This document shows positions 46,008-58,963 of a stretch of DNA of 64,000 nucleotides, piece after piece. The notes beneath the pieces are model-generated. The model was given only the letters and a program-made list of their open reading frames with translations. It searched no databases and was not told where the DNA came from. The translations under genes and the position numbers were made by a program. Position 1 is the first letter of the stretch, and every line of letters begins with the position of its first letter. The stretch is from positions 3,038,001 to 3,102,000 of the forward strand of contig NZ_PDJG01000001.1 of assembly GCF_002564005.1 (NCBI RefSeq). Reading direction: 5' to 3'. Origin of the DNA: Sanguibacter antarcticus. GTDB taxonomy: Bacteria > Actinomycetota > Actinomycetes > Actinomycetales > Cellulomonadaceae.

Positions 46008-47117
46008 GTGGACCTGGTGATCGATTCCGTGCGCGTCGCGCTGAGCAGGCAGGACGTGGCTCTCGCCGACGGCGAGACCTTCCTCGGCGGCGGCACGTGG
46101 CTCTACTCCCAGGCCGAGCACCACCTTGCCCCTGAGAACACCGAGGTCTCGTCGGCTGCACCGAGCCAGGACGCACGCGTGCGCGGCCTCGTCGACCTCA
46201 CCCTCCTCGGGTGGGCTCCGCTCACCCCGACCGACGCCGGCCTGAGCATCGCGGCCACCTGCACCATCGCGACCCTCGTCGACCTCGGCGAACATGGTGC
46301 GGCCGAGCACCCCACATGGACGGCTCTCCCCTTGTTCGCCCGGTGCGCGAACGCCCTGCTCGCGTCGTGGAAGGTCTGGAACGTCGCGACAGTCGGCGGC
46401 AACGTCTGCCTGTCGCTCCCCGCCGGCGCGATGATCGCGCTCGCCGTCGCGCTCGACGCGGACGCGGTGACATGGCTGCCGGACGCCGAGACGGTGGCTG
46501 GGGCCGCGACCGCGACCGCGACCGCGACAACAACCTCGACCTCGACCGCAACCGAGACCGCGGCAGCGCCACCGATCGGCGGCGAACGCCGGCTCCCCGT
46601 GGCCGAGCTCGTGACCGGGCCGGGCCGCAACACGCTCGCGCGCGGCGAGGTGCTGCGATCGATCGAGATCCCGCGGTACGCCCTCGAGTCCCGGACGGCC
46701 TTCCGGCAGATCGCGCTCTCGCCGCTCGGCCGCTCGGGTGCGGTCGTCGTCGGGCGGCACGACGCAGACGGCACGACGACCCTCGCGATCACCGCCAGCA
46801 CACCCGCACCCGTGGTCCTGCGTTTCCCGGCTCCACCGACGGCGGCTCGTGTCCGCGAGGCGGTGGCCAGCATCGAGACCTGGTTCGACGACGTCCACGG
46901 CGCACCCGACTGGCGCGCCCACGTCACAGGCGTCCTCGCTGAGGAGGTCCGCGCGGAGCTCGCGGCATGCGCCACGTCGAGCGCCACGTCGAGCGCTGCG
47001 TCGAGCGCCGCGTCGAGCGCCGCGCCGAGCGCCGCGCCGAGCGTCGGGCCGAGCGTCGGGCCGAGCGACCCGGCGGGGTCCGGCCCTCGCCCCGACCAAG
47101 ACGGAGGCCTGCGATGA
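46008..47117 (+). CDS. FAD-binding subunit of xanthine dehydrogenase
   Basis: Protein of 369 residues, the medium (FAD) subunit of a molybdenum hydroxylase. FAD contacts are ETFLGGGTWLYSQAE (FAD pyrophosphate loop) and KVWNVATVGGNVCLSLPAGA, and ARGEVLRSIEIP opens the C-terminal domain. GTG at 46008 follows CAGGAGG. Two low-complexity stretches are inserted: Ala/Thr alternation at residues ~165-190 and a C-terminal tail from a 12-bp repeat. ATGA overlap with the next gene makes it part of a two-subunit enzyme with the fused 2Fe-2S/molybdenum protein. Confidence 0.88.
   Translation: MDLVIDSVRVALSRQDVALADGETFLGGGTWLYSQAEHHLAPENTEVSSAAPSQDARVRGLVDLTLLGWAPLTPTDAGLSIAATCTIATLVDLGEHGAAEHPTWTALPLFARCANALLASWKVWNVATVGGNVCLSLPAGAMIALAVALDADAVTWLPDAETVAGAATATATATTTSTSTATETAAAPPIGGERRLPVAELVTGPGRNTLARGEVLRSIEIPRYALESRTAFRQIALSPLGRSGAVVVGRHDADGTTTLAITASTPAPVVLRFPAPPTAARVREAVASIETWFDDVHGAPDWRAHVTGVLAEEVRAELAACATSSATSSAASSAASSAAPSAAPSVGPSVGPSDPAGSGPRPDQDGGLR
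46971..47066 (+). repeat. eight 12-bp tandem repeats encoding the tail of the FAD subunit
   Basis: Eight consecutive units of GCCACGTCGAGC and close variants (ending GTCGGGCCGAGC) encode alternating Ser/Ala then Pro/Ser/Val tetrapeptides at the C-terminus. Unit divergence rises along the array. Confidence 0.85.
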
Positions 47118-49873
47118 AGCTCGAGGTCAACGGCGTGATGCTCGACGCGCAAGCCGCCCCCGGCCAGTGCCTGCGGACCCTGCTGCGCGAGCACGAGCAC
47201 TTCGAGGTGAAGAAGGGCTGCGACTCCGGCGACTGCGGGGCGTGCACCGTCCTCGTCGACGGCGCGCCCGTGCACTCGTGCATCTACCCGGCGCACCGCA
47301 TGGACGGGAAGACCGTCACGACGGTCGCCGGCCTCGGCGACGAGGAGCACCCGCACCCGGTCCAGTCGGCGTTCGCGGCCGCCGGTGGATTCCAGTGCGG
47401 GTTCTGCACGCCGGGCATGGTCGTCACCACGTCCGTCCTCACGGACGAGCAGAAGGCTGACCTGCCGCACGCCCTCAAGGGCAACCTCTGCCGCTGCACC
47501 GGGTACCGCGCGATCGAGGACGCGGTCAACGGGGTCCGCAACGTCGAGCCGACCTGCGGCAGCGCCACGACAGCAGGCGCAGACGCCTCGACCAGCGCTC
47601 CGGCCACACCGACGGTTCCCATCGCGCCCATCGCGCCCACCGCGCATACCGCGCCCGCAGCGCTCGCAGCCCCCGCAGCGCCGACCGGCCCCATGGGCAC
47701 CTCCGTCGGCGCCCCGGCAGCGATGCGCGTCGTCACCGGCCGTGAGCCGTACACGCTCGACCTCACGACCACGGGGGTGCTCCACCTCGCCGTCCTCGGC
47801 AGCCCGTACGCCCACGCACGCGTCCTCTCGGTCGACACGACCGTGGCACAGGCTCTCCCGGGGGTCCGCGCAGTCCTCACCGCAGCCGACTCCCCGGACG
47901 TCCTCTTCTCCACGGGCCGCCACGAGAACCGGCTCGACGACCCGGACGACACCCGCATCATCGACACGATCGTCCGGTTCCAGGGCCAGCGGGTCGCGGC
48001 TGTCATCGCCGACGACGTCGCCACCGCCCAGCGTGCCCGCGACCTCGTGCGCGTCGAGTACGAGGTGCTGCCCGCCGTCTTCGACCCCGAGGAGGCCCGC
48101 GCGCCCGGCGCCCCCCTCATCCACCCCGACCGCACACCCGCGGACCGCGTCGACGAAGCCCACCGCAACGTCATCGTCACCCTCCACGACGAGATGGGCG
48201 ACACCACGACTGCTCTCGCGGACGCCCACGCGACCGTCTCCGGCACGTGGCGCTCGCAGCGCGTCTCCCACGCCGCGCTCGAGACCCACGCCGCACGCGG
48301 CTGGCTCGACGCGACCGGTCGGCTCGTCATCCGCACGAGCACCCAGGTTCCCTACCTCGTCCGCGACGAGCTCTGCCACGTCCTCGGCCTCGAGCAGGAC
48401 CAGGTCCGCGTCTTCACCGCCCGCGTCGGCGGTGGCTTCGGCGGCAAGCAGGAGATCCTCACGGAAGACCTCGTCGCGCTCGCGGTCCTGCGGACCGGGC
48501 GGCCGGTCCAGTACGAGATGACGCGCGAGGACGTCTTCACGATCGCGACGGTCCGCCACCCGATGGCCGTCACCGTGCGCCTCGGTGCCGACGCGGACGG
48601 CACGCTCACCGCGATGACCGTCGAGATGCTCAGCGACACCGGCGCCTACGGCAACCACAGCCGCGGCGTCATGTTCCACAGCCTCAACGAGTCGCTCGCC
48701 GTCTACCGCTGCCCGGCCACGCGGGTCGACGCCGAGGTGGTCTACACGAACAACCCGCCCTCGGGTGCGTTCCGGGGCTACGGGCTCGGTCAGGTCGTCT
48801 TCGCCGTCGAGTCGGCGATGGACGAGCTCGCCCGCGAGCTCGGCATCGCGCCGGTCGAGCTGCGCCGGCGCAACGTCGTCGGGCCCGGGGAAGTGATGGT
48901 CGTCACGGACCCGGACGAGGTGAGCGACCTGCGCCACGGCAGCTATGGCCTCGACCAGTGCCTCGACCTCACGGAGGCCGCGCTTGCTCGAGGCGCAGCC
49001 GACGGGCCGGGCGTGCCGAGCGGTCCGCAGTGGTCGCACGGTAGCGGCACGGCGCTCGCGATGATCGCGACGATGCCGCCGCGCGGGCACTTCGCTGACA
49101 CGAGTGTCGCCCGGCTGGCGGACGGGACCATCGAGGTCTGTGTCGGGACCGCGGAGTTCGGCAACGGCACCACCACCGTGCACCAGCAGTTCGCCGCCCA
49201 GGTCCTCGGTGTTCCTGTGAGCCAGGTCCGGGTGCGGCAGTCGGACACCGACGTGGTCCGTTACGACACGGGCGCGTTCGGGTCGACGGGCTCGGTCGTC
49301 GCCGGCAAGGCGGTCGTCCTCGCAGCCGAGCGCCTCAAGGCGATGATCACCGAGGCCGACGCGCGTCGTCCGGGCACCGGCGAACCGTTGACCGAGCTCG
49401 TCGCGCACGGGAGTCACGACGGCACGCCGCGGTCGGTGGCCTACAACGTCCAGGGCTTCCGGGTCGCGGTGAACCGCGATACCGGGGAGGTCCGCATCCT
49501 CCAGAGCGTGCAGTCGGCCGACGCCGGCGTGGTCATCAACCCCGAGCAGCTCCGCGGCCAGATCGAGGGCGGGGTGGGTCAGGCGATCGGCGCTGCGCTC
49601 TACGAGGAGGTGCGGCTCGACGGCGCAGGCCACGTCCTCACGCGCACGTTCCGCGAGTACCACGTGCCGCAGATCGCCGACCTCCCGCGCACCGAGGTGT
49701 ACTTCGCGGACACGGTCGACAGCATCGGCCCGCTCGGGGCGAAGTCGATGAGCGAGGCCCCGTTCAACCCCGTCGCCGCGGCGCTCGCCAACGCGATCGA
49801 CGATGCGACCGGGGTCAGGCTGACGGAGCTCCCGATGTCTCGAGAACGGGTGTGGCGGGCGATGGCTCGCTAG
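47114..49873 (+). CDS. xanthine dehydrogenase, fused 2Fe-2S and molybdenum subunits
   Basis: Protein of 919 residues. Residues 1-147 are the iron-sulphur subunit: plant-type cluster Cys36, 41, 44, 56 (KKGCDSGDCGACTVLVDG) and helical cluster Cys95, 98, 126, 128 (CGFCTPGMV, CRCTGY). A Thr/Ala/Pro linker (148-205) joins the molybdopterin domain: GGGFGGKQE, SGAFRGYGLGQ and the catalytic Glu in GAKSMSEAPFNPVAAALANA. It oxidises hypoxanthine and xanthine to urate with the FAD subunit. The fusion of the small and large subunits is uncommon. The end overlaps the MFS gene by 59 bases. Confidence 0.9.
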   Translation: MKLEVNGVMLDAQAAPGQCLRTLLREHEHFEVKKGCDSGDCGACTVLVDGAPVHSCIYPAHRMDGKTVTTVAGLGDEEHPHPVQSAFAAAGGFQCGFCTPGMVVTTSVLTDEQKADLPHALKGNLCRCTGYRAIEDAVNGVRNVEPTCGSATTAGADASTSAPATPTVPIAPIAPTAHTAPAALAAPAAPTGPMGTSVGAPAAMRVVTGREPYTLDLTTTGVLHLAVLGSPYAHARVLSVDTTVAQALPGVRAVLTAADSPDVLFSTGRHENRLDDPDDTRIIDTIVRFQGQRVAAVIADDVATAQRARDLVRVEYEVLPAVFDPEEARAPGAPLIHPDRTPADRVDEAHRNVIVTLHDEMGDTTTALADAHATVSGTWRSQRVSHAALETHAARGWLDATGRLVIRTSTQVPYLVRDELCHVLGLEQDQVRVFTARVGGGFGGKQEILTEDLVALAVLRTGRPVQYEMTREDVFTIATVRHPMAVTVRLGADADGTLTAMTVEMLSDTGAYGNHSRGVMFHSLNESLAVYRCPATRVDAEVVYTNNPPSGAFRGYGLGQVVFAVESAMDELARELGIAPVELRRRNVVGPGEVMVVTDPDEVSDLRHGSYGLDQCLDLTEAALARGAADGPGVPSGPQWSHGSGTALAMIATMPPRGHFADTSVARLADGTIEVCVGTAEFGNGTTTVHQQFAAQVLGVPVSQVRVRQSDTDVVRYDTGAFGSTGSVVAGKAVVLAAERLKAMITEADARRPGTGEPLTELVAHGSHDGTPRSVAYNVQGFRVAVNRDTGEVRILQSVQSADAGVVINPEQLRGQIEGGVGQAIGAALYEEVRLDGAGHVLTRTFREYHVPQIADLPRTEVYFADTVDSIGPLGAKSMSEAPFNPVAAALANAIDDATGVRLTELPMSRERVWRAMAR

Positions 49874-51200
49874 GTCCGTCGCCGACGAGGGAGTCGCCGT
49901 CGGTGAGCGTCCGGTGCGCGACGAACCAGTACGCGACTCCGGCGAGCACGACGATCGACGCAGCGATCGACGGGAGCGCCAGCGCGGCCGACGCACCGAA
50001 GCGCTCACCGACCTCGCCGGTGACGGCGGAGCCGATCGACTGCCCGACGATGACGGCAGAGCCGAGGATCGTCATGACGGTCGTCGACCGGCCGCGGGGG
50101 CTGAGGGTCGAGCCGATGCTGTACTGCGTGACGAGGGTGGGCCCTACCCCGATGCCGATGACGGCGAGAGCGACGACGAGGTGCAGCACCGAGCCTGCGA
50201 ACGGCAGGGTGAGCGTCCCGGCGAGGACGACGCCGGCGAAGGTGAGCCACCGTGCACGGAGCGTGAACCCGACGGGGAAGAGCGCGACGGCGAGAGCGAG
50301 CGCAGCCGACCCGACGCCCATGACGCCGTAGACGAGGCCGGCGCGCTCGGGGTCGCCCTGGTCGTTCATGAATGCGGTGAGCGAGGTGAGCATCGTGCCG
50401 AAGAAGAGCCCGACACCGAGGATGCCGACGATCACGCTCACGAGACCGGGGTGCCACAGGTCCCGCAGCGGGGCGGCCTCGGCTGCGTCCCTGTCGTGCG
50501 TGCGCTGGACCGTGCTCGTGGGGTGCAGTGCGAACGCGGTGACGAACACGAGGGTGATCGCCCCGGCGGCGACGAGGGGGAGCCACGGGGCGACGCCGGA
50601 CGCGAGGATCCCGACGAGGAACGGCCCGACGACGAAGACGGTCTCGTCGGCGGCGGACTCGTAGGCCATCGTCGAGTTGAAGCTCCGGACCCGGAGGTTC
50701 GGGGCGAGCCGGTCGGAGATGATGCGCACGAGGCGGGTCCGTGACATGGGGCCGACCTGGGGCGCCGTCGTCCCGATGAGGAAGGCCGCGACGAGGACCG
50801 CCGCGTCCGGCAGCGTGGAGTACACGGCCCAGGCGAACCCAGCGAGCATGAGGCCGTTGGCCGTCCCGGCGACGAGGAGGACGACGCGCTGGCCGTACCG
50901 GTCGGCGGCGGCGCCGAGCAGCGGGCCGACGCACGCGGTGCCGAGGCCCACCATCGCGGAGCTCAGGCCGGCGAACGAGAGCGACCCGCGGGCGGAGACG
51001 ACGAGGGTGAGGACCCCGACGACCATCATCGCGAACGGGAGACGTGCGACGAACGCGACGGGGAAGTAGAGCCGTCCTGTGTGGTGCACGAGCGCGGAGC
51101 CGGGCTCGGACGCGCGGGGAGATGCGGTGCGCGGGGACGCGGTGCGGTGGGGCTGGGTGGGGCGGAGTTCTTCGGGCTGTGGTTCTGGGGTGGTGTTCAT
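49815..51200 (-). CDS. MFS transporter
   Basis: Protein of 461 residues with 12 helices, preceded by about 35 polar residues. The MFS A-loop is GAAADRYGQRVVLL between helices 2 and 3; a long loop 6-7 is rich in charged residues (STVQRTHDRDAAEAAPLRDL). Helix signatures are not those of a named drug pump. Its location between xanthine dehydrogenase and XdhC, in convergent then co-directional order, suggests a purine or its product as cargo, but the family is promiscuous. Confidence 0.85.
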   Translation of the reverse strand: MNTTPEPQPEELRPTQPHRTASPRTASPRASEPGSALVHHTGRLYFPVAFVARLPFAMMVVGVLTLVVSARGSLSFAGLSSAMVGLGTACVGPLLGAAADRYGQRVVLLVAGTANGLMLAGFAWAVYSTLPDAAVLVAAFLIGTTAPQVGPMSRTRLVRIISDRLAPNLRVRSFNSTMAYESAADETVFVVGPFLVGILASGVAPWLPLVAAGAITLVFVTAFALHPTSTVQRTHDRDAAEAAPLRDLWHPGLVSVIVGILGVGLFFGTMLTSLTAFMNDQGDPERAGLVYGVMGVGSAALALAVALFPVGFTLRARWLTFAGVVLAGTLTLPFAGSVLHLVVALAVIGIGVGPTLVTQYSIGSTLSPRGRSTTVMTILGSAVIVGQSIGSAVTGEVGERFGASAALALPSIAASIVVLAGVAYWFVAHRTLTDGDSLVGDGPSEPSPATPVLETSGAPSA

Positions 51201-51344
51201 GACCTCTGCGCACGGTCGCAGCCGGGGCTGCGACAGCTCTGGTGCCGCCGTCGTCTGGTCGGCAGGAGGCCGACAGCCGGTAGATACACGTTGACGAGAC
51301 TTACGGCGCGCCGTCGATCGGTGCGCCTGCTGTCAGCAAAGGTA

Positions 51345-52376
51345 TCAGGCGACGATCGGCCGGGCGCGGGAGGAGGTGCGGTGGACGGGCCCGTCGAGCG
51401 CTCGCAGCGGGACGCCGCTCGCCCCGGCGCGGACCGCCAGGATCTCGGCGAGGATCGCCACGGCGGTCTCCTGCGGGGTGCTGCCACCGATGTCGAGCCC
51501 GATCGGTGAGTGCAGCCGGCCGAGCTCGTCCTCGGTCACGCCAGCCTCGACGAGAGCTGCCACCCGGTCCGTGTGGGTGCGTCGTGAGCCCATCGCGCCG
51601 ACGAAGGCGACGGGCATGCGCAGCGCTGCCGCGAGGAGCGGCACGTCGAACTTCGGGTCGTGCGTGAGCACGCACACGACCGTCCGGTCGTCGATCGTCT
51701 CCGCCGCTAGCTCGCCTGCGAGGTACGCGTGGGGCCACGACACGACGACGTCCCGGGCCCGAGGGAACCGGTCGGGTGTCGCGAACACGGGGCGCGCGTC
51801 GCACACGGTGACGCTGTAGCCGACGAAGGCGGCGGCCTCGGTGAGGGCGACCCCGAAGTCGTTGGCGCCGCAGACGATGAGGCGTGCGGGCGGGCGGGAC
51901 AGCTCGCGGAAGACCTTGACGGGGGCGCCGGGGGCGCCGAGAGCGTCGCACGCGTCGTCTCCGACGAACGTCCCGAGCATCGCGGGTGGCCCGTCGACGA
52001 CGAGCGAGAGCGATGCGGCGAGGCCTTCGCGCGCCGCGCGCAGCGGGCCGAGCCACGCTCCGGCCGGGGGCAGCAGCGCGACGAACACCTCGATCTCGCC
52101 GCCGCACGTGAGGCCGACGCCGATCGCGTCGGCGTCGCTGATGCCGTAGGTCTCACGGACCGGAGGGCCACCGTCGAGGATGTCGAGGGCAGCCTCGTAG
52201 ACCGCGCCCTCGACGCAGCCGCCGGAGACGCTGCCGACGACGCTGCCGTCGTCGAGCACCACCATCGATGCGCCGGCAGGGCGCGGGGCGCTGCCACGGA
52301 CGCCGACGACCGTCGCGACCGCTGCTCGCCGCCCGGTCGCCACGACATCCAGGAGGGTGCCGGCGACGTCGAACAT
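51345..52376 (-). CDS. xdhC: XdhC-type molybdenum cofactor maturation factor
   Basis: Protein of 343 residues. It contains the XdhC/CoxI domain (VGVRGSAPRPAGASMVVLDDG, SVSGGCVEGAVYEAALD) and a C-terminal Rossmann part (RLIVCGANDFGVALTEAAAF, GAMGSRRTHTDRVAALVEAG, SPIGLDIGGSTPQETAVAIL). XdhC carries the molybdenum cofactor and puts the essential sulfur on it before insertion into xanthine dehydrogenase. It is separated from the dehydrogenase by the MFS gene, on the opposite strand. ATG at 52376. Confidence 0.92.
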   Translation of the reverse strand: MFDVAGTLLDVVATGRRAAVATVVGVRGSAPRPAGASMVVLDDGSVVGSVSGGCVEGAVYEAALDILDGGPPVRETYGISDADAIGVGLTCGGEIEVFVALLPPAGAWLGPLRAAREGLAASLSLVVDGPPAMLGTFVGDDACDALGAPGAPVKVFRELSRPPARLIVCGANDFGVALTEAAAFVGYSVTVCDARPVFATPDRFPRARDVVVSWPHAYLAGELAAETIDDRTVVCVLTHDPKFDVPLLAAALRMPVAFVGAMGSRRTHTDRVAALVEAGVTEDELGRLHSPIGLDIGGSTPQETAVAILAEILAVRAGASGVPLRALDGPVHRTSSRARPIVA

Positions 52377-52537
52377 GGGCGGTCCTCTCCTGGTGGCGAC
52401 GGTGCCGTGCGTCGTTGCACGACACGGCACCTGCGGGCGCTCTCACGCTAGGGCGTCCGTGTATCCCGAAGGTTACGACCGTGCGCCTGCCGGTGACGGC
52501 CTGGCACGGCAGGCCCGGGCGTGGCGCGTCGTCGTGG

Positions 52538-53839
52538 TCACGCGAACGGGTTGACCTCGAGCGCGGCGAGCGCCGCCCAGGCGGTCGCGCCCGTGTGCAG
52601 GGACGTGTAGATCTCGTCGCCCTCGCCGCTCGAGAGCCCGTCGGACGACGCGGCGGGGATGCCGCGGCCGTCGGAGGTCTCGACGGAGACCTGCGCTCTC
52701 CAGATCGAGGTCCGCAGGGCGCTCGCACGGGCGGCGTCGCCACGGGAGGCCCGGGTGCTGAGCGCGCAGGCGAGGTGCCCGGTGCCTTCCAGCCAGACCT
52801 TCTTCTCGTCGGTGACGAACACGCGGGTGCCACGCACCGGACCGTCGGTGGTCACGAGGTTCGCCAGCGTGTAGTCGAGCGACGTCGCGTAGGCGGGCTC
52901 GCGCAGCGCGAGGTACGTCCATGTCTGGACGTCTTCGAAGATCGGGGAGACGTTCGGCGTGATGCCGTCGTTGACGGTACCCACATGGAAGTGGTCGCCC
53001 TGCCACATCGAGCGGACGAAGACGCGGGCGGTCTCGGCGTGGGCTGCCCACGCCTGGTCGCCCGTGGCGCGCGCCAGCTGCGTGAAGAAGCCGACGCAGT
53101 CGGCGTTGTGCTCCGTGGAGCGCCACGTCAGGGGTGTGCCGGTACCCGTCGACCCGCCGGAGAATCCACCGACGCCGCGGGCGTCGTACGCGGTGGTGAC
53201 GACGAAGGTCGCGGTGCGGAGCGCTGCGTCGCGGAACTGGGGCGCGCCGGTGTGCTCGAAGAGCCGCACGAACGCCATGCCGACCCACGCCTGGTTGCCG
53301 GTCATCGTCGCGGTGCTGGCGATGCGCGGGCGGCCGACCCCAGCCTCCGGCACCGAGGTGTACGAGCTGCGCAGCCGGCTGTCGCCGGCCGGGTCGGCGA
53401 GCTGGACCGCGACGAGGACGTCGCCGATCTTCGTCGCTCGGGCGACGTCGTCGGGTGTCCCGCGGGCCAGGTAGGCGAGGACGACGAGGGCGCAGTCGTA
53501 GACGGACGCGGAGTCGTAGCCGATATCGCCGAGGTGCCCGCCGGTGTAGCTGCGCGGGAGGTAGCCCTCGGTCCCGGGGTCGAGCGGTGTCCGTTCGTCG
53601 AGAAACTCGAAGGCGTTCGCCAGGGCTGCGACGGGGTCGACAGGCGTGCGTGTCCGAGTCTGTGCACCGCGGCGGTTCTCTCGCGCGGACGCAGGGCCGG
53701 CGCCAATCCCGCACGAGACGGCGATGGGCACGAGCACGGCGATCCCGGCGATCCTCAGGATGGTCCGCCGACCAGGCCCGAGGAGTGCTCCTCCGGGGCC
53801 GTCGCTGGTCGTCGTGCGGTCCGGTGCGGTGAAGGTCAT
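52538..53839 (-). CDS. secreted (alpha/alpha)6-toroid-like protein, possible glycoside hydrolase
   Basis: Protein of 433 residues. A twin-arginine-type signal (GRRTILRIAGIAVLVPIAVS) precedes the mature protein, whose repeated helix pairs (VYDCALVVLAYLARG, NQAWVGMAFVRLFEHTG, DCVGFFTQLARATGDQAWAA, TWTYLALREPAY, ATAWAALAALEVNPFA) and conserved aromatic/acidic loops are those of six-hairpin glycosidases or lyases. No catalytic acid pair could be fixed. It is divergent from the REC-PIG-L operon across 493 bases and could trim or bind the same glycan (inference). Confidence 0.72.
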   Translation of the reverse strand: MTFTAPDRTTTSDGPGGALLGPGRRTILRIAGIAVLVPIAVSCGIGAGPASARENRRGAQTRTRTPVDPVAALANAFEFLDERTPLDPGTEGYLPRSYTGGHLGDIGYDSASVYDCALVVLAYLARGTPDDVARATKIGDVLVAVQLADPAGDSRLRSSYTSVPEAGVGRPRIASTATMTGNQAWVGMAFVRLFEHTGAPQFRDAALRTATFVVTTAYDARGVGGFSGGSTGTGTPLTWRSTEHNADCVGFFTQLARATGDQAWAAHAETARVFVRSMWQGDHFHVGTVNDGITPNVSPIFEDVQTWTYLALREPAYATSLDYTLANLVTTDGPVRGTRVFVTDEKKVWLEGTGHLACALSTRASRGDAARASALRTSIWRAQVSVETSDGRGIPAASSDGLSSGEGDEIYTSLHTGATAWAALAALEVNPFA

Positions 53840-54332
53840 GGTGCCGTCCTTGGCGTTGTCGACACCGGCGCACCCGTGGCACGGGTCTCGCCCGTGCGGT
53901 GCATGGTCGCGACTGCGCGGTCCAGCCGTCTGCTGTCGCGCTCGTCGACCGTCGCACGTGGCGGTGCGCGGCACCAGGGCACGGAGCCGGCTCGCCGGGT
54001 GAAAAAAGAACGGTGCACCGGACGGTCGAGAAAGAGGTGATCGGAGGTATCTGAATTCTTGGTGGAGCGGGTGAAAAAACTCTCAGAACGCGAAACTCTT
54101 CGGTACCCTTCGCGCTCGGGACGCCCGGAACTGTGCGGACACCGAGGGGGTGACCGGCCGTGCGCCGAGCAAAGACGGCTCGCCGCGAATTACCCGCGAG
54201 GTTACGCTCGAGAGCAATGGCTCTGACGAGGGTGACAGATAAAAGAACGCAGTCGGGTCCAGGCTCCGGGCATACGGTACGGAGACTGCACGACGGATCC
54301 ATTCCGGTAGGAATGACAGCGGAGGGAGATCT
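53840..54332. other. 493-base divergent control region
   Basis: Separates the toroid-like gene from the glycan operon. It is less GC-rich, with runs such as GTGAAAAAAGAACGG near 54000 and GTGAAAAAACTCTC near 54071, and a CGAATTACCCGCGAGG hairpin-like stretch near 54186-54202. The motif GTGAAAAAA occurs twice, 71 bases apart. A CATACGG hexamer near 54271 could be a -10 box. No riboswitch family or gene recognised. Confidence 0.45.
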
Positions 54333-55496
54333 GTGAGCACTGGTTATGTGGTCTTGGTCGTCGAAGACGATCCGGATGCCGCTGTCTACATGCGCACCAT
54401 CCTCCAGCGCGTCGGGATGCGGCCGCACGTGACGGGGAGCCCGCGCGAGGCGCTCGAGCTCTTGGCGTCGACCACGGTGGACCTCATCCTCACGGACATC
54501 GAGCTGCCGGGCATGACGGGGCTGGAGATGATCGGGCAGATCAAGCTGACGTGCCCGACGGTGCCGATCGTCGTCATGACGGCCCATGCCACCGTCAGCT
54601 ACGCGGTCGACGCCTTGCGGGCCGAGGCCGACGAGTTCCTCTTCAAGCCGATCCGCAAGCCCCAGCTCGTCGAGGTCATCGAGCGGCTCGTCACGAAGGC
54701 CCGCGCCGCAGCGACACCGGCCACCGTGGTCCTCGCGATCGGGGCGCACCCAGACGACATCGAGATCGGGATCGGCGGCACCCTCGCCGCTCACCGGGCT
54801 GCGGGCGACGCCGTGGTGATCCTCACGATGAGCCGCGGTGCCCGTGGCGGCGAGGCCGACGACCGGCAGGGCGAGTCTCTCGCTGCGGCCGAGCTGCTCG
54901 GCGCCCGGCTGTTCCTCAAGGATCTCGAGGACACCCGGATCAGCGCGGGCGACCCGACGGTCGGCATCATCGAGCAGGTCGTCGCCGAGACGGGGCCGTC
55001 GATCGTCTACACGCACTCGGCGAACGACCGTCACCAGGACCACGTGGCTGTCCATCGTGCCGTCTCGGTCGCGACCCGGCGCGTCCCCATGCTCGCCTGC
55101 TACCAGAGCCCGTCCGCGACGGTCGACTACCGGCCCAACCGCTTCGTCTCCATCGACGGCTTCACCGACTCGAAGCTCGCGCTGCTGCGCGCGTTCGGCT
55201 CTCAGTCGGGCATCCGGGACTACCTCATGCCCGACTTCGTCCTCGCGACGGCGCGCTACTGGTCCCGCTACGGCGGCGGCACGTACGCGGAGCCGCTCGA
55301 GGTCATCCGGGACACGTCCGCCGTGCGACGTGCCACCGGCGGGACGTCTACCGGAGCCACCGTGGTTCCGGTGAGCCACGACACGGCGCTCGTCGGCGAC
55401 CCGGGGGCGCTCCCCGGGGTGGCGCTCGGACCGGACACCACGTTCCGTCCTGACCTGACGTTCCGACCTGATGCAGAGAGGCACGACCGCTCATGA
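54333..55496 (+). CDS. response-regulator receiver fused to PIG-L/LmbE deacetylase
   Basis: Protein of 387 residues. Residues 1-120 are a complete receiver: acidic triad (Glu11, Asp12, Asp13), phospho-acceptor Asp55 in LILTDIELPGMTG, Thr83 and Lys105 in FLFKPIRKP. Residues 130-320 are a PIG-L zinc deacetylase: GAHPDDIEIGIGG (His139, Asp141, Asp142), SRGARGGEADDRQGE and HSANDRHQDHVAVHRA (His228, Asp232, His234, Asp236, His237). The C-terminal 65 residues are low in structure. PIG-L enzymes remove acetyl from N-acetylglucosamine conjugates. No kinase gene is adjacent. GTG at 54333 after GGAGGGA; ATGA overlap with the next gene. Confidence 0.9.
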   Translation: MSTGYVVLVVEDDPDAAVYMRTILQRVGMRPHVTGSPREALELLASTTVDLILTDIELPGMTGLEMIGQIKLTCPTVPIVVMTAHATVSYAVDALRAEADEFLFKPIRKPQLVEVIERLVTKARAAATPATVVLAIGAHPDDIEIGIGGTLAAHRAAGDAVVILTMSRGARGGEADDRQGESLAAAELLGARLFLKDLEDTRISAGDPTVGIIEQVVAETGPSIVYTHSANDRHQDHVAVHRAVSVATRRVPMLACYQSPSATVDYRPNRFVSIDGFTDSKLALLRAFGSQSGIRDYLMPDFVLATARYWSRYGGGTYAEPLEVIRDTSAVRRATGGTSTGATVVPVSHDTALVGDPGALPGVALGPDTTFRPDLTFRPDAERHDRS

Positions 55497-56521
55497 CCCG
55501 TACCGAGCACAGCCCCGCCACCCCCGAGCCCGGGTGCACCGTCCTCGTCACCGGTGCGGGCGGCCCTGCGGGCGTGAGCATCGTCCGCTCGCTCCTCGCG
55601 GTCCCTGACGTGACGGTCCTCGCCTCCGACATGGACGCGTTCGCGAGCGGTCTCTACCTCGTCCCCGCAGGCCGCCGCCACCTCGTGCGCCCCGGGCTGG
55701 CCCCGGACTTCGTCGACCATCTCCTGGCGCTGTGCCGCGACACCGGCGTCGACGTCCTCTTCCCGACGGTCGACGTCGAGCTCGTGCCGGTCGCTCGTCG
55801 GCGCGACGAGTTCGCCGCGATCGGGGTCGCGGTCGCCAGCCCGTCGCTCGACACCCTGGAGCACACGCTCGACAAGTACCTCCTGGCCCAGCGGTGCGCG
55901 GGACCCGACCTCCCCGTGCCCCGCACCGAGCTGCTCGGCGTCGCGTACGACTGGGAGTACCCCGTCATCGTCAAGCCACGCTCCGGGAGCGGCTCGCGCG
56001 GCGTGCACCTCGTCGAGGACGAGGCCGCGCTGCGGGCGCTCGGCACGGACGCGAGCCAGATCGTCCAGGAGAACCTGCCCGGCGAGGAGTATTCCGTCGA
56101 CGTCCTCGCGGACCTCGACGGGCGCGTCCTCGCGGCGGTCCCGAGGTCCCGGCTCCGGGTCGACTCGGGGGTCTCGGTCGCCGGCCGCACGATCAAGGAC
56201 GACGAGCTCCAGCGGACAGCGACCGCGGTCGCGGCGCGCGTGGGCCTGACGACGGTCGCGAACGTCCAGCTGCGCCGCCGGGCCGACGGCACGGCCGCGC
56301 TCCTCGAGGTGAACCCCCGCTTCCCGGGGGCGATGCCGCTGACGATCGCTGCCGGTGTCGACATGCCGCGGCTCTGCCTCGACATGGTCCTCGGCAGACC
56401 GCTCCCTGCGTCCCTGCCGTTCCGGGAGCTGGCGAACGTCCGCTACCTCGAGGACGTCTTCCTCGACCCGGCCGAGATCCTTCCGGACCTCGCCCCCAGC
56501 GACGTCCTCGACCTCGCATGA
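55493..56521 (+). CDS. ATP-grasp ligase, CarB/PylC-like
   Basis: Protein of 342 residues. N-terminal pre-ATP domain with the Rossmann-like VLVTGAGGPAGVSIVRSLLA; then the ATP-grasp: VIVKPRSGSGSRGVHLVED (ATP Lys and small Gly loop), QIVQENLPGEEYSVDVL and the Mg-binding VNPRFPGAMPLTIAAG. These enzymes join a carboxylate to an amine or thiol through an acyl-phosphate. In this operon it may attach an amino acid to a sugar amine freed by the deacetylase (inference). ATGA coupling at both ends. Confidence 0.88.
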   Translation: MTRTEHSPATPEPGCTVLVTGAGGPAGVSIVRSLLAVPDVTVLASDMDAFASGLYLVPAGRRHLVRPGLAPDFVDHLLALCRDTGVDVLFPTVDVELVPVARRRDEFAAIGVAVASPSLDTLEHTLDKYLLAQRCAGPDLPVPRTELLGVAYDWEYPVIVKPRSGSGSRGVHLVEDEAALRALGTDASQIVQENLPGEEYSVDVLADLDGRVLAAVPRSRLRVDSGVSVAGRTIKDDELQRTATAVAARVGLTTVANVQLRRRADGTAALLEVNPRFPGAMPLTIAAGVDMPRLCLDMVLGRPLPASLPFRELANVRYLEDVFLDPAEILPDLAPSDVLDLA

Positions 56522-57252
56522 CCAGCGAGGGCACAAGGGTGGACGAGCGCCAGGACCACCACGTCCACTCGACCTTCTCCGACGACGCGGTGAGCACGCT
56601 CGACGAGAACGTCGCGGCGGCGTCCGACCGCGGTCTGCGCGTGCTCCGGCTCGTCGACCACGTGCGGCTCAGCACCACGTGGGTGCCCGACTTCCTCGCG
56701 GCCGTCGCCGCGCTCGACGTGCCCGACGGTCTCGAGGTCTGCACGGGAGTCGAGGCGAAGATCCTCGACTCCGCAGGCCGTCTCGACCTCCCCGACGGAC
56801 TGGGGACGCACCCGGGCGTGGACCGCGTGCTCGTCGCCGACCACCAGTTCCCCGGAGCCGACGGCCCGGTGAGCCCGCGCGTCGTCCGGGACGGCATCCT
56901 CACACCCCAGGACGCGGCCGACGCTCTCGACGTCGTGGTCACCGCGACCGTCGCCGCGATGCACCAGGTGGACCGTGCCCAGATCGCGCACCTCTTCTCC
57001 CTGCTGCCGAAGATCGGTGTGAGCGAGGACCAGGTCACCGACGAGCACGTCGCCGCGCTCGGCGCCGCGGCGGCCGCGACCGGCACGACCATCGAGGTGA
57101 ACGAGAAGTGGGCCTGCCCGGGCCCCCGCGTCGTCCGCGCGCTCCTCGCAGCAGGTGTCGAGCTCGTCGTCAGCACCGACAGCCACGTCGCCTCAGACGT
57201 GGGTCGCTACGCACGCGTGAGCGAGATCCTCCGGGTGGCGGACAGCTCCTGA
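56518..57252 (+). CDS. PHP-domain phosphoesterase
   Basis: Protein of 244 residues with the PHP metal motif HHVHSTFSDDAVSTLDENV near the start (three His and Asp), VDHVRL, GVEAKI, and VSTDSHVAS near the end. Relatives include histidinol phosphatase and the CpsB/YwqE phosphotyrosine phosphatases found in capsule operons. Substrate here unknown. Coupled by ATGA upstream and TGATG downstream. Confidence 0.85.
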   Translation: MTSEGTRVDERQDHHVHSTFSDDAVSTLDENVAAASDRGLRVLRLVDHVRLSTTWVPDFLAAVAALDVPDGLEVCTGVEAKILDSAGRLDLPDGLGTHPGVDRVLVADHQFPGADGPVSPRVVRDGILTPQDAADALDVVVTATVAAMHQVDRAQIAHLFSLLPKIGVSEDQVTDEHVAALGAAAAATGTTIEVNEKWACPGPRVVRALLAAGVELVVSTDSHVASDVGRYARVSEILRVADSS

Positions 57253-58730
57253 TGGACACCCTCGAGACCATCGTGACCTGGCTGTGCGTCGTCTTCGTGG
57301 CGACCGGCGCGGTCCCTGTCGTCGCGGGGGCCTACCAGTTTCTCGTCATCCCGTTCCACGGGCTCCGCAACCACTACGGGCGCACCGCCCCCTACTTCCC
57401 GCGCGTGGCCGTCGTGGTGCCCGCCTGGAACGAGGGGGCCGTCATCGCGGCGTCGATCGACCGGCTCATGCGCCTGGAGTACCCGCCCGAGTCGTTGCGC
57501 GTGTATCTCGTGGACGACGCGAGCACCGACGACACCCCGGACGTCGCCCGGGCCAAGGAGGTCGAGTACCCCGGCCGGGTCGTGCACCTGCGACGCGAGA
57601 AGGGCGGCGAGGGCAAGGCGCACACGCTCAACCACGGCCTGCGGACGATCCTCGCGGACGACTGGATGCAGGCGCTGCTCATCATGGACGCCGACGTCAT
57701 CTACCAGCCAGACTCGTTGCGCCTCATGACGCGGCACCTGGCGGACCCCGAGGTGGGCGCGGTGACCGCGTACATCACCGAGGGCAGCGACGACCCCAAC
57801 TACATGACGCGGTTCATCGGCTACGAGTACATCGCCGCGCAGGCGGCCGCACGCCGTGCGCAGAACGTCATGGGCGCGGTCGCGTGCCTCGCCGGCGGCG
57901 CACAGCTCCACTCGCGGGAGAACCTCCTCGCGATCGGCGGCGAGATCGACACGACCTCCCTCGCCGAGGACACCTTCACCACCCTGCGCACCCAGATCGC
58001 CGGCCGCCGGGTCGTCTTCGAGCCGCACGCGATCGTCCTGGCGGAAGAACCCGGGACCGTCGGCGCCCTGTGGAAGCAGCGGCTGCGATGGTCGCGCGGC
58101 AACGTCCAGATCAGCCGCGTGTTCAAGCACCTGTGGTTCCGTCCACGTCGCCAGCACAACCTCGGGTCGATCCCCTTCGGCCTCATCTGGTTCGCCATCC
58201 TCCTGCTCCCGGCGACGATGGTGCTCAACACCGCCGGGCTCGTCGGCCTCTACCTGCTCGACAGCGACTACGCGAGGACCGCGTTCCAGGCGACGTGGTT
58301 CCTCGCCGGGTCCACGTACGTCTTCCTGACGGCCTTCACGATCATGATCGACCCGGCGACCGGGCGTCGGGCATGGCGCGAGGCGGTCGTCTTCCCCGGG
58401 CTCGTGTCCCTGCTCGTCATGACGGTCGCGTTCGCCCCGGAGGTCATCGACACCTACGCGGTGGGCCTGCTGGGGTTCGACCCGTTCACGACGACCCTGT
58501 GGACGCTCTTCGTGTACTCGTGGATCTCGTTGTCCATGGTCGGCGCATGGATCGCCAAGCGCGTCGAGACCACCCGCCTCGGCCGGTGGCTCACGCCGCC
58601 GCTCGTCTACCTCGTCGGGTACGGCCCGATCCTCTGCGCGATCACGTTCGACGCCTACATCAAGGAGTACCGCGGAGCCGCGCAGGTGTGGGACAAGACA
58701 GAGAAGACAGGGCGGGTGCGGACTACATGA
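57252..58730 (+). CDS. processive family 2 glycosyltransferase, membrane-bound
   Basis: Protein of 492 residues. An N-terminal helix is followed by a cytosolic GT-A domain: VAVVVPAWNEGAVIAASIDR, LVDDASTDDTPD, the DxD in LIMDADVIYQPDS, the acceptor ED in LAEDTFTTLR and the processive QxxRW motif QRLRWSRGN. At least four C-terminal helices follow. This is the architecture of cellulose, hyaluronan and poly-N-acetylglucosamine synthases, which polymerise and export a chain. With the PIG-L enzyme the product could be a partly deacetylated polymer (inference). Confidence 0.9.
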   Translation: MDTLETIVTWLCVVFVATGAVPVVAGAYQFLVIPFHGLRNHYGRTAPYFPRVAVVVPAWNEGAVIAASIDRLMRLEYPPESLRVYLVDDASTDDTPDVARAKEVEYPGRVVHLRREKGGEGKAHTLNHGLRTILADDWMQALLIMDADVIYQPDSLRLMTRHLADPEVGAVTAYITEGSDDPNYMTRFIGYEYIAAQAAARRAQNVMGAVACLAGGAQLHSRENLLAIGGEIDTTSLAEDTFTTLRTQIAGRRVVFEPHAIVLAEEPGTVGALWKQRLRWSRGNVQISRVFKHLWFRPRRQHNLGSIPFGLIWFAILLLPATMVLNTAGLVGLYLLDSDYARTAFQATWFLAGSTYVFLTAFTIMIDPATGRRAWREAVVFPGLVSLLVMTVAFAPEVIDTYAVGLLGFDPFTTTLWTLFVYSWISLSMVGAWIAKRVETTRLGRWLTPPLVYLVGYGPILCAITFDAYIKEYRGAAQVWDKTEKTGRVRTT

Positions 58731-58963
58731 GCGTGCAGAAGACGACTCCTCGACGTCGGGAGAAGCGGTACCGCCCGGTCCGCCGGTCCGCCTCAGGGCT
58801 GGAGCGCCGCCCGCTGAGGTCTGACCTCGTGGCGCCCACGCGCGAGGCCGAGCGCGAGCTGCGCCGAGACGCCCACGCCGAGCGGATGCTGATGCTCAAG
58901 GCCTTGGCGTCGCTCGCGCTCGCCGTCGTGCTCGTCCTCCTCCGGCAGGCCTACTTCGTCTAG
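58727..58963 (+). CDS. small membrane protein ending the glycan operon
   Basis: Protein of 78 residues: an Arg-rich cytosolic N-terminus (TPRRREKRYRPVRR) and one C-terminal helix (LMLKALASLALAVVLVLL). ATGA overlap with the glycosyltransferase shows it belongs to the operon; it may assist the synthase as small PgaD-like partners do. No sequence family recognised. Confidence 0.75.
   Translation: MSVQKTTPRRREKRYRPVRRSASGLERRPLRSDLVAPTREAERELRRDAHAERMLMLKALASLALAVVLVLLRQAYFV

Follow-up and report, generated by a model that had tools for sequence, protein, structure and literature searches.

The known control of bacterial surface polymers runs mostly through transcription and cyclic di-GMP (c-di-GMP). 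In PgaABCD and IcaADBC, which are among the described systems closest to the locus analysed here, a membrane glycosyltransferase of family 2 (GT2) with a QxxRW motif is accompanied by a small membrane partner, PgaD or IcaD, and by an N-deacetylase, PgaB or IcaB, which is an exported CE4 enzyme. A five-gene operon on the + strand of a 64,000-nucleotide stretch of the Sanguibacter antarcticus genome (3.52 Mb, one contig), at positions 54333-58963 of what is hereafter called the window, shares with these systems the membrane GT2 and its motif, the small membrane partner, the N-deacetylase and, likely, an amino-sugar polymer as product. However, its GT2 lies far below the family cut-off, an ATP-grasp ligase and a PHP enzyme are added, the small partner has one span, and the deacetylase is a cytosolic PIG-L protein fused to a response-regulator receiver (REC) domain instead of an exported CE4 enzyme. 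From the Bcs system the operon differs in a GT2 that gave no PilZ match in a Pfam search at E 0.001, in its two-component input, and in having a deacetylase and a ligase, and the CelA model gives 57 of 699 bits. Mycothiol and bacillithiol synthesis (MshA, MshB, MshC; BshA, BshB, BshC) is alike in using a transferase, a PIG-L enzyme and then ATP-driven amide formation on an amine, whereas the operon has a membrane synthase-type GT2, an ATP-grasp enzyme and signalling and, in diderm versions, BcsB-like parts. On balance, we favour the reading that the operon encodes a synthase-dependent surface-polysaccharide machine with two-component phosphorelay control exerted at the enzyme level. Its features are as follows.

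54321..54325 (+): GGAGG resembling a ribosome-binding site, seven bases 5' of gene A, read from the sequence
54333..55496 (+): gene A, REC-PIG-L, 387 aa; GTG start (uncertain); Pfam Response_reg and PIG-L
55493..56521 (+): gene B, ATP-grasp ligase, CarB/PylC-like, 342 aa; Pfam ATPgrasp_Ter; 4-base overlap with A
56518..57252 (+): gene C, PHP metal-dependent hydrolase, YcdX-like, 244 aa; Pfam PHP; 4-base overlap with B
57252..58730 (+): gene D, membrane GT2 synthase, 492 aa; Pfam Glyco_tranf_2_3; 1-base overlap with C
58727..58963 (+): gene E, small single-span membrane protein, 78 aa; no Pfam family; 4-base overlap with D

An earlier sequence-only reading had described five overlapping, coupled genes with these domains, and had named separation of the genes in relatives as evidence that would refute it. 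The coordinates, the successive overlaps of 4, 4, 1 and 4 bases and the Pfam matches bear out the first point. On the second, the relatives in Actinomycetota did not refute the reading, and all four main genes (A to D) occur together in 4/9 stretches from diderm bacteria. Across 16 loci and 64 junctions the overlaps in relatives are mostly 1-14 bases, with gaps of 1 and 5 bases at two junctions, and individual values are biased towards overlap by a script that favoured starts yielding short overlaps. Public predictions give 372 aa for gene A and 237 aa for gene C, so that both starts are uncertain; the 237-aa PHP start would abolish one overlap in the window, at a junction where the remaining 15 loci all show an overlap. 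Since the gene order recurs in relatives, the operon is not a chance arrangement, and the overlapping genes may be made into products of fixed ratio.

Full-length REC-PIG-L proteins were found in 6 of 29 genomes (the window's own, G001, G003, G004, G005 and G015; G003 and G005 are same-genus genomes). The A-B-C-D order is present in the window's own genome, G001, G004 and G005, and also in G003, where a contig end truncates A; G015 and a second G003 locus show another arrangement (type II). Sixteen of the 80 loci kept match across both domains of A (L026-L040 and, more weakly, L098), and gene content was read for 18 of the 80 (L026-L041, L049 and L098). Eight of the sixteen (L026-L031, L033, L034) contain A-B-C-D; L032 has A-B-C with a short remnant of D, a place where the sequence shows no run of N; in L035 a kinase accompanies A, with neither B nor D in reach; L037 and L039 are diderm versions, and L036, L038 and L040 are type II. 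Two candidate clusters were rejected: L098, matching at 37% across both domains, has no ATP-grasp, PHP or GT2 in its stretch, and L160, with REC-PIG-L-like matches, has none of the three within 19.5 kb. L125 and L186 are the same DNA as L028 and L036, respectively (100% identity, contigs of equal length), and each pair was counted once.

Co-inheritance was followed in a sample of 394 genomes of the class (thresholds E 1e-10 for PHP, 1e-80 for GT2 and 1e-45 for REC-PIG-L). PHP and GT2 orthologues occur in the identical eight genomes, the window's own included, a coincidence with a probability of 7e-17 for two independent eight-genome sets when phylogeny is ignored. REC-PIG-L occurs in 12 of the 394, namely seven of these eight and five others, of which three carry type II and two carry A and a kinase in stretches where no further gene of the cluster was found. 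The eighth genome, G022, has a PIG-L protein lacking the receiver in the same four-gene cluster, and in G354 the cluster is split over two contigs, GT2 and A on one and PHP and ATP-grasp on the other. Among the best 120 matches listed in each of three protein searches, the source names are generic (response regulator, histidinol-phosphatase, putative hydrolase, glycosyltransferase).

Gene A belongs to both the response-regulator family (Response_reg, E 2.9e-28, 98.7 bits against a cut-off of 30.2) and the PIG-L/LmbE family (E 3e-23, 83.1 bits against 28.2). All receiver residues are present (D12, D13, D55, T83, K105), with Asp55 as phospho-acceptor, as are the catalytic motifs AHPDD (138-142) and HQDH (234-237), so that the predicted pairing of a deacetylase with a phosphorylation switch in one protein is upheld at the domain level. 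Thirty REC-PIG-L-type proteins were aligned, 29 of them with a receiver and one, from L112, an intact PIG-L protein without it. In the 29 receivers the phospho-Asp and the Lys are invariant, Thr is found in 28 and Ser in one, and the acidic pair is DD in 28 and DE in one. Both PIG-L motifs are kept in 28 of the 29; the exception, L146 (8479-9396, - strand), keeps its receiver joined to a PIG-L-like half that has lost AHPDD and HxxH, and is possibly a non-catalytic offshoot. No ATP-grasp or GT2 match was found in the 18 kb of L146, which was included in the residue count and excluded from the cluster count; its gene has a hybrid histidine kinase and a gene for a protein kinase as neighbours. 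L147, outside the alignment, keeps AHPDD in its PIG-L domain and has no intact receiver ahead of it.

Of the 18 type I actinobacterial loci with gene calls, 12 (L026, L028, L030-L034, L107, L108, L124, L126, L129) have a kinase of one family (F4, PAS-HisKA-HATPase architecture) next to the cluster or no more than 8 kb away. No F4 kinase was seen in the stretches around the window operon, L029, L106, L111, L112 and L127, several of which are short. In L107, L108, L034, L124 and L126 the kinase follows E and a lone receiver gene; in type II it follows A. No kinase is linked to the operon in the window; the closest F4-like kinase of this genome (42% over the kinase core, G000:307847-308596) adjoins a lone receiver gene; a tree gave it no clear placement, and it is not claimed as the partner of the operon.

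Gene D, assigned to Glyco_tranf_2_3 (E 1.9e-35), carries QRLRW at residues 276-280, and QRxRW is found in all 25 of 25 GT2s of the cluster and related loci. Its AlphaFold model (predicted local distance difference test score 90.9) finds structural matches in PcManGT, the closest fold, BcsA and hyaluronan synthase, and in structural comparison it aligns with polymerising synthases along the membrane helices. Gene D is a synthase-type GT2 whose modelled fold is BcsA/hyaluronan-synthase-like, and chain elongation is predicted for it. Its bit scores fall well short of three curated family cut-offs: 115.3 against 422.3 for PgaC_IcaA (TIGR03937), the best NCBIfam match, 77.4 against 550 for NodC (TIGR04242), and 56.9 against 699.1 for BcsA (TIGR03030). 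In the GT2 tree its clade is separate from E. coli PgaC, with long branches. The assignment to the cellulose/poly-GlcNAc synthase type thus stands for the fold and fails for membership of the PgaC or BcsA families.

In each of the 19 type I actinobacterial loci where the GT2 gene is whole, an open reading frame (ORF) resembling gene E directly follows it. These ORFs encode 44-81 aa with a membrane span and overlap the GT2 gene, stop codon included, by 4 bases (8 in L129); most combine a charged stretch rich in Arg with a single hydrophobic span that has an Arg close to its end. As a control in 17 of these loci (all but L027 and L185), such an ORF follows 1 of 265 other called genes of at least 150 aa, versus 17 of 17 GT2 genes. 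In 7 of 7 diderm loci, a search for span-bearing ORFs of 40-95 aa with a start anywhere between 12 bases ahead of the GT2 stop and 150 bases past it found none.

Gene B is an ATP-grasp protein (ATPgrasp_Ter, E 7e-31, 107.2 bits against a cut-off of 29.1), whose connection to the Ter-associated biosynthetic ATP-grasp operons is through the Pfam name alone. Gene C belongs to the PHP hydrolases (E 9.1e-08, 33.0 bits against 26.4), and its sole PDB sequence match is ycdX. In the alignment with E. coli YcdX the HxH, H, E, H, H and DxH positions match, with Asp replacing one YcdX His, and we take these aligned residues to be metal ligands. In E. coli K-12, ycdX lies about 6.6 kb from pgaABCD (L148), which may be coincidence.

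Versions of the cluster also occur in the diderm Pseudomonadota and Myxococcota, where A-type matches were found in 6/235 and 2/193 genomes of the phylum samples, and in 3/73 and 3/76 relatives of two of those genomes, the genome at the centre being included in each count. Nine diderm cluster loci were recognised (L037, L039, L142, L143, L144 with L163, L145, L147, L161, L162; L163 and L164 overlap L144 and L142 and were counted with them). ATP-grasp and GT2 are each present in 7/9 and PHP in 6/9, some stretches stopping at contig ends, and L037, L039, L143 and L144 with L163 contain all of A to D. BcsB-like proteins were found in 8/9, seven by tblastn and that of L039 by profile (5.5e-20); the L161 stretch stops before this region. 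Against a Pfam BcsB cut-off of 21 bits, the protein of L037 scores 46.0, that of L143 reaches 13.2 and that of L039 has no Pfam match, while the remainder were assigned by homology to the L037 protein and its kin. The comparison of four such proteins with E. coli BcsB by hhalign was weak (probability 2.2%), and the BcsB-like profile (A2) gave no match among PDB sequences. TPR proteins accompany the cluster in L037, L143, L144, L161 and L162 and, weakly, in L039 and L147. A conserved 114-120 aa protein of no Pfam family occurs in 5/9 diderm clusters (L143 6441-6794, with homologues in L037, L142, L145 and L163) and adjoins the GT2 in three.

Hybrid kinases with receiver and Hpt domains were identified by Pfam in L037, L039 and L143 and by homology in L144, L145 and L161, together 6/9. 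Glucosamine-6-phosphate synthase (GlmS) occurs in L144 and L161, two of the nine loci and from related genomes; in L144, on mechanical ORF limits, GlmS precedes the kinase at a distance of 12 bases, and the kinase and A overlap by 34. Families of nitric oxide (NO) sensors are linked to 3/9 loci by adjacency, H-NOX in L039 and L145 and FIST in L037 and L145. This resembles the H-NOX/HnoK/HnoB and NosP/NahK/NarR pathways, where such sensors stand beside a kinase feeding a response regulator. According to the part of PMC8846402 consulted, H-NOX and NosP (FIST) proteins act on kinases whose regulators alter c-di-GMP. The regulators described there make or break c-di-GMP, whereas here the output is a sugar deacetylase within a polysaccharide locus.

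In the machine that we favour, a histidine kinase, which stands beside the operon in many relatives and is unlinked here, would phosphorylate Asp55 of A, and this would switch the fused PIG-L domain. The PIG-L domain could strip the N-acetyl group from a cytosolic GlcNAc-type sugar, which would be either a uridine diphosphate (UDP)-sugar donor or the growing chain on the inner face of the membrane. The ATP-grasp enzyme might then activate a carboxylic acid, probably an amino acid, as an acyl phosphate and join it to the freed amine, and the PHP enzyme might take phosphate off an intermediate or by-product. The GT2, with the small span of E as a partner, would polymerise the sugar and extrude the polymer, which BcsB-like and TPR proteins could carry onward in outer-membrane bacteria. 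Genes, coupling, co-inheritance, conserved active sites and the GT2 fold are shown; the substrates, the succession of steps and the product are inferred, and which amino acid B would use, what C would act on and whether phosphorylation turns A on or off are guesses. The combination of a cytosolic deacetylase, a carboxylate-amine ligase, a phosphohydrolase and a membrane synthase suggests that the amine is freed and re-acylated inside the cell, and GlmS in two diderm loci, together with the UDP-GlcNAc 2-epimerase and HAD phosphatase of the related clusters L041 and L049, points to GlcNAc-type sugars. The sequence-only reading had placed deacetylation and then acylation on an extracellular polymer. 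That is not supported: A shows nothing like a membrane span (hydropathy mean of at most 1.4 over 19 residues), and ATP-grasp and PHP belong to families known as cytosolic, so that both steps should occur inside the cell, before or during polymerisation.

The enzyme set could also be explained by a small glycoconjugate pathway, in which the GT2 would add one GlcNAc-type sugar to a lipid or small acceptor and PHP, PIG-L and ATP-grasp would dephosphorylate, deacetylate and aminoacylate the product. A transferase, a phosphatase, a PIG-L enzyme and a carboxylate-amine ligase make up the logic of mycothiol and bacillithiol synthesis, here with a membrane acceptor; in addition, PcManGT is titled an N-glycan mannosyltransferase, and L041 and L049 pair PIG-L and ATP-grasp with the phosphatase and epimerase. 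Nevertheless, the diderm BcsB-like and TPR proteins better fit an exported chain and the GT2 membrane helices align with polymerising synthases, so that we regard such a pathway as unlikely, if worth keeping in mind. A poly-N-acetylglucosamine (PNAG)-like system, making partly deacetylated poly-GlcNAc with PIG-L replacing PgaB and with ATP-grasp and PHP in side jobs, would agree with PgaC_IcaA as the best NCBIfam match and with GlmS in two diderm loci. It appears improbable given the 115 bits against a curated cut-off of 422, a GT2 clade that the tree, on long branches, separates from E. coli PgaC, the lack of any relation between a secreted type II protein and E. coli PgaB (PgaB homologues were not otherwise searched for), and an exported polymer that would be out of reach of a cytosolic deacetylase. 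Gene A might instead be mainly a signalling protein, its PIG-L domain making or destroying a small cytosolic signal and the other genes being merely co-transcribed. REC-PIG-L away from the GT2/PHP set in 5/12 genomes and the receiver retained in L146 on a PIG-L half without catalytic motifs would suit this explanation, which becomes very improbable when all 8/394 genomes with PHP and GT2 have a PIG-L gene adjoining them or, in G354, beside the GT2 on another contig.

The type II loci (L036, L038, L040, L109, L110, L187, L188) have REC-PIG-L and a kinase on one side and, facing them, another ATP-grasp, a GT2 of a second clade and a protein called F23; no PHP match was found where sought. F23 has a hydrophobic N-terminus and a sub-threshold GHL10 match; it was rejected as a relative of PgaB (probability 0.3% against the E. 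coli protein), and its profile (A1) gave four PDB sequence matches at E 0.084 or worse, all unrelated. Related but distinct clusters, L041 (2840-8750) and L049 (9995-16236), combine PIG-L, ATP-grasp, UDP-GlcNAc 2-epimerase, HAD phosphatase and GT2, and their ATP-grasp proteins are fused to the epimerase in L041 and to an exosortase-like membrane domain in L049. Upstream of the operon in the window, a divergent gene (52538-53974, - strand) encodes a 478-aa protein, likely exported as judged by eye. It was considered as a polymer hydrolase of the operon and dropped, with no Pfam family at E up to 10; a homologue occupies the same position in G005 (L106 7157-8314), and none was found in the other loci surveyed. 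Molybdopterin dehydrogenase-type genes (FAD-binding and MoCo-binding subunits) with an XdhC/CoxI-type gene lie at 46008-52430, between hem genes and the operon, and in G005 hem-type genes directly adjoin the operon and its divergent neighbour.

In the open literature searched, as far as titles and the beginnings of abstracts go, no description of the gene set or of a receiver-PIG-L fusion was found, in line with the sequence-only reading, whose author knew of no described pathway with this set; subscription journals are mostly uncovered, and a passing mention is possible. A term search of the LmbE superfamily review PMC4101496 finds neither 'response regulator' nor 'receiver', and one of PMC12419801 finds PHP and ATP-grasp in other contexts. 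The system is real and conserved; its kind is recognisable and its point of control unusual. It is apparently unnamed, and the function proposed for it is our inference. We tentatively raise the possibility that it represents an undescribed exopolysaccharide class in Actinomycetota, Pseudomonadota and Myxococcota, in which a phosphorelay acting through neither transcription nor c-di-GMP, and tied to NO sensors in some diderms, would directly switch a cytosolic N-deacetylase for ATP-grasp (amino)acylation of the amino sugars of an exported polymer.

A receiver fused to a modifying enzyme would give a direct route from signal to polymer chemistry, and the N-substituent, if this reading is true, would be a new matrix component. 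The locus is a ready genetic handle on such chemistry: it has only five genes, its active sites lend themselves to clear mutants, and its relatives show a kinase that can be recognised.
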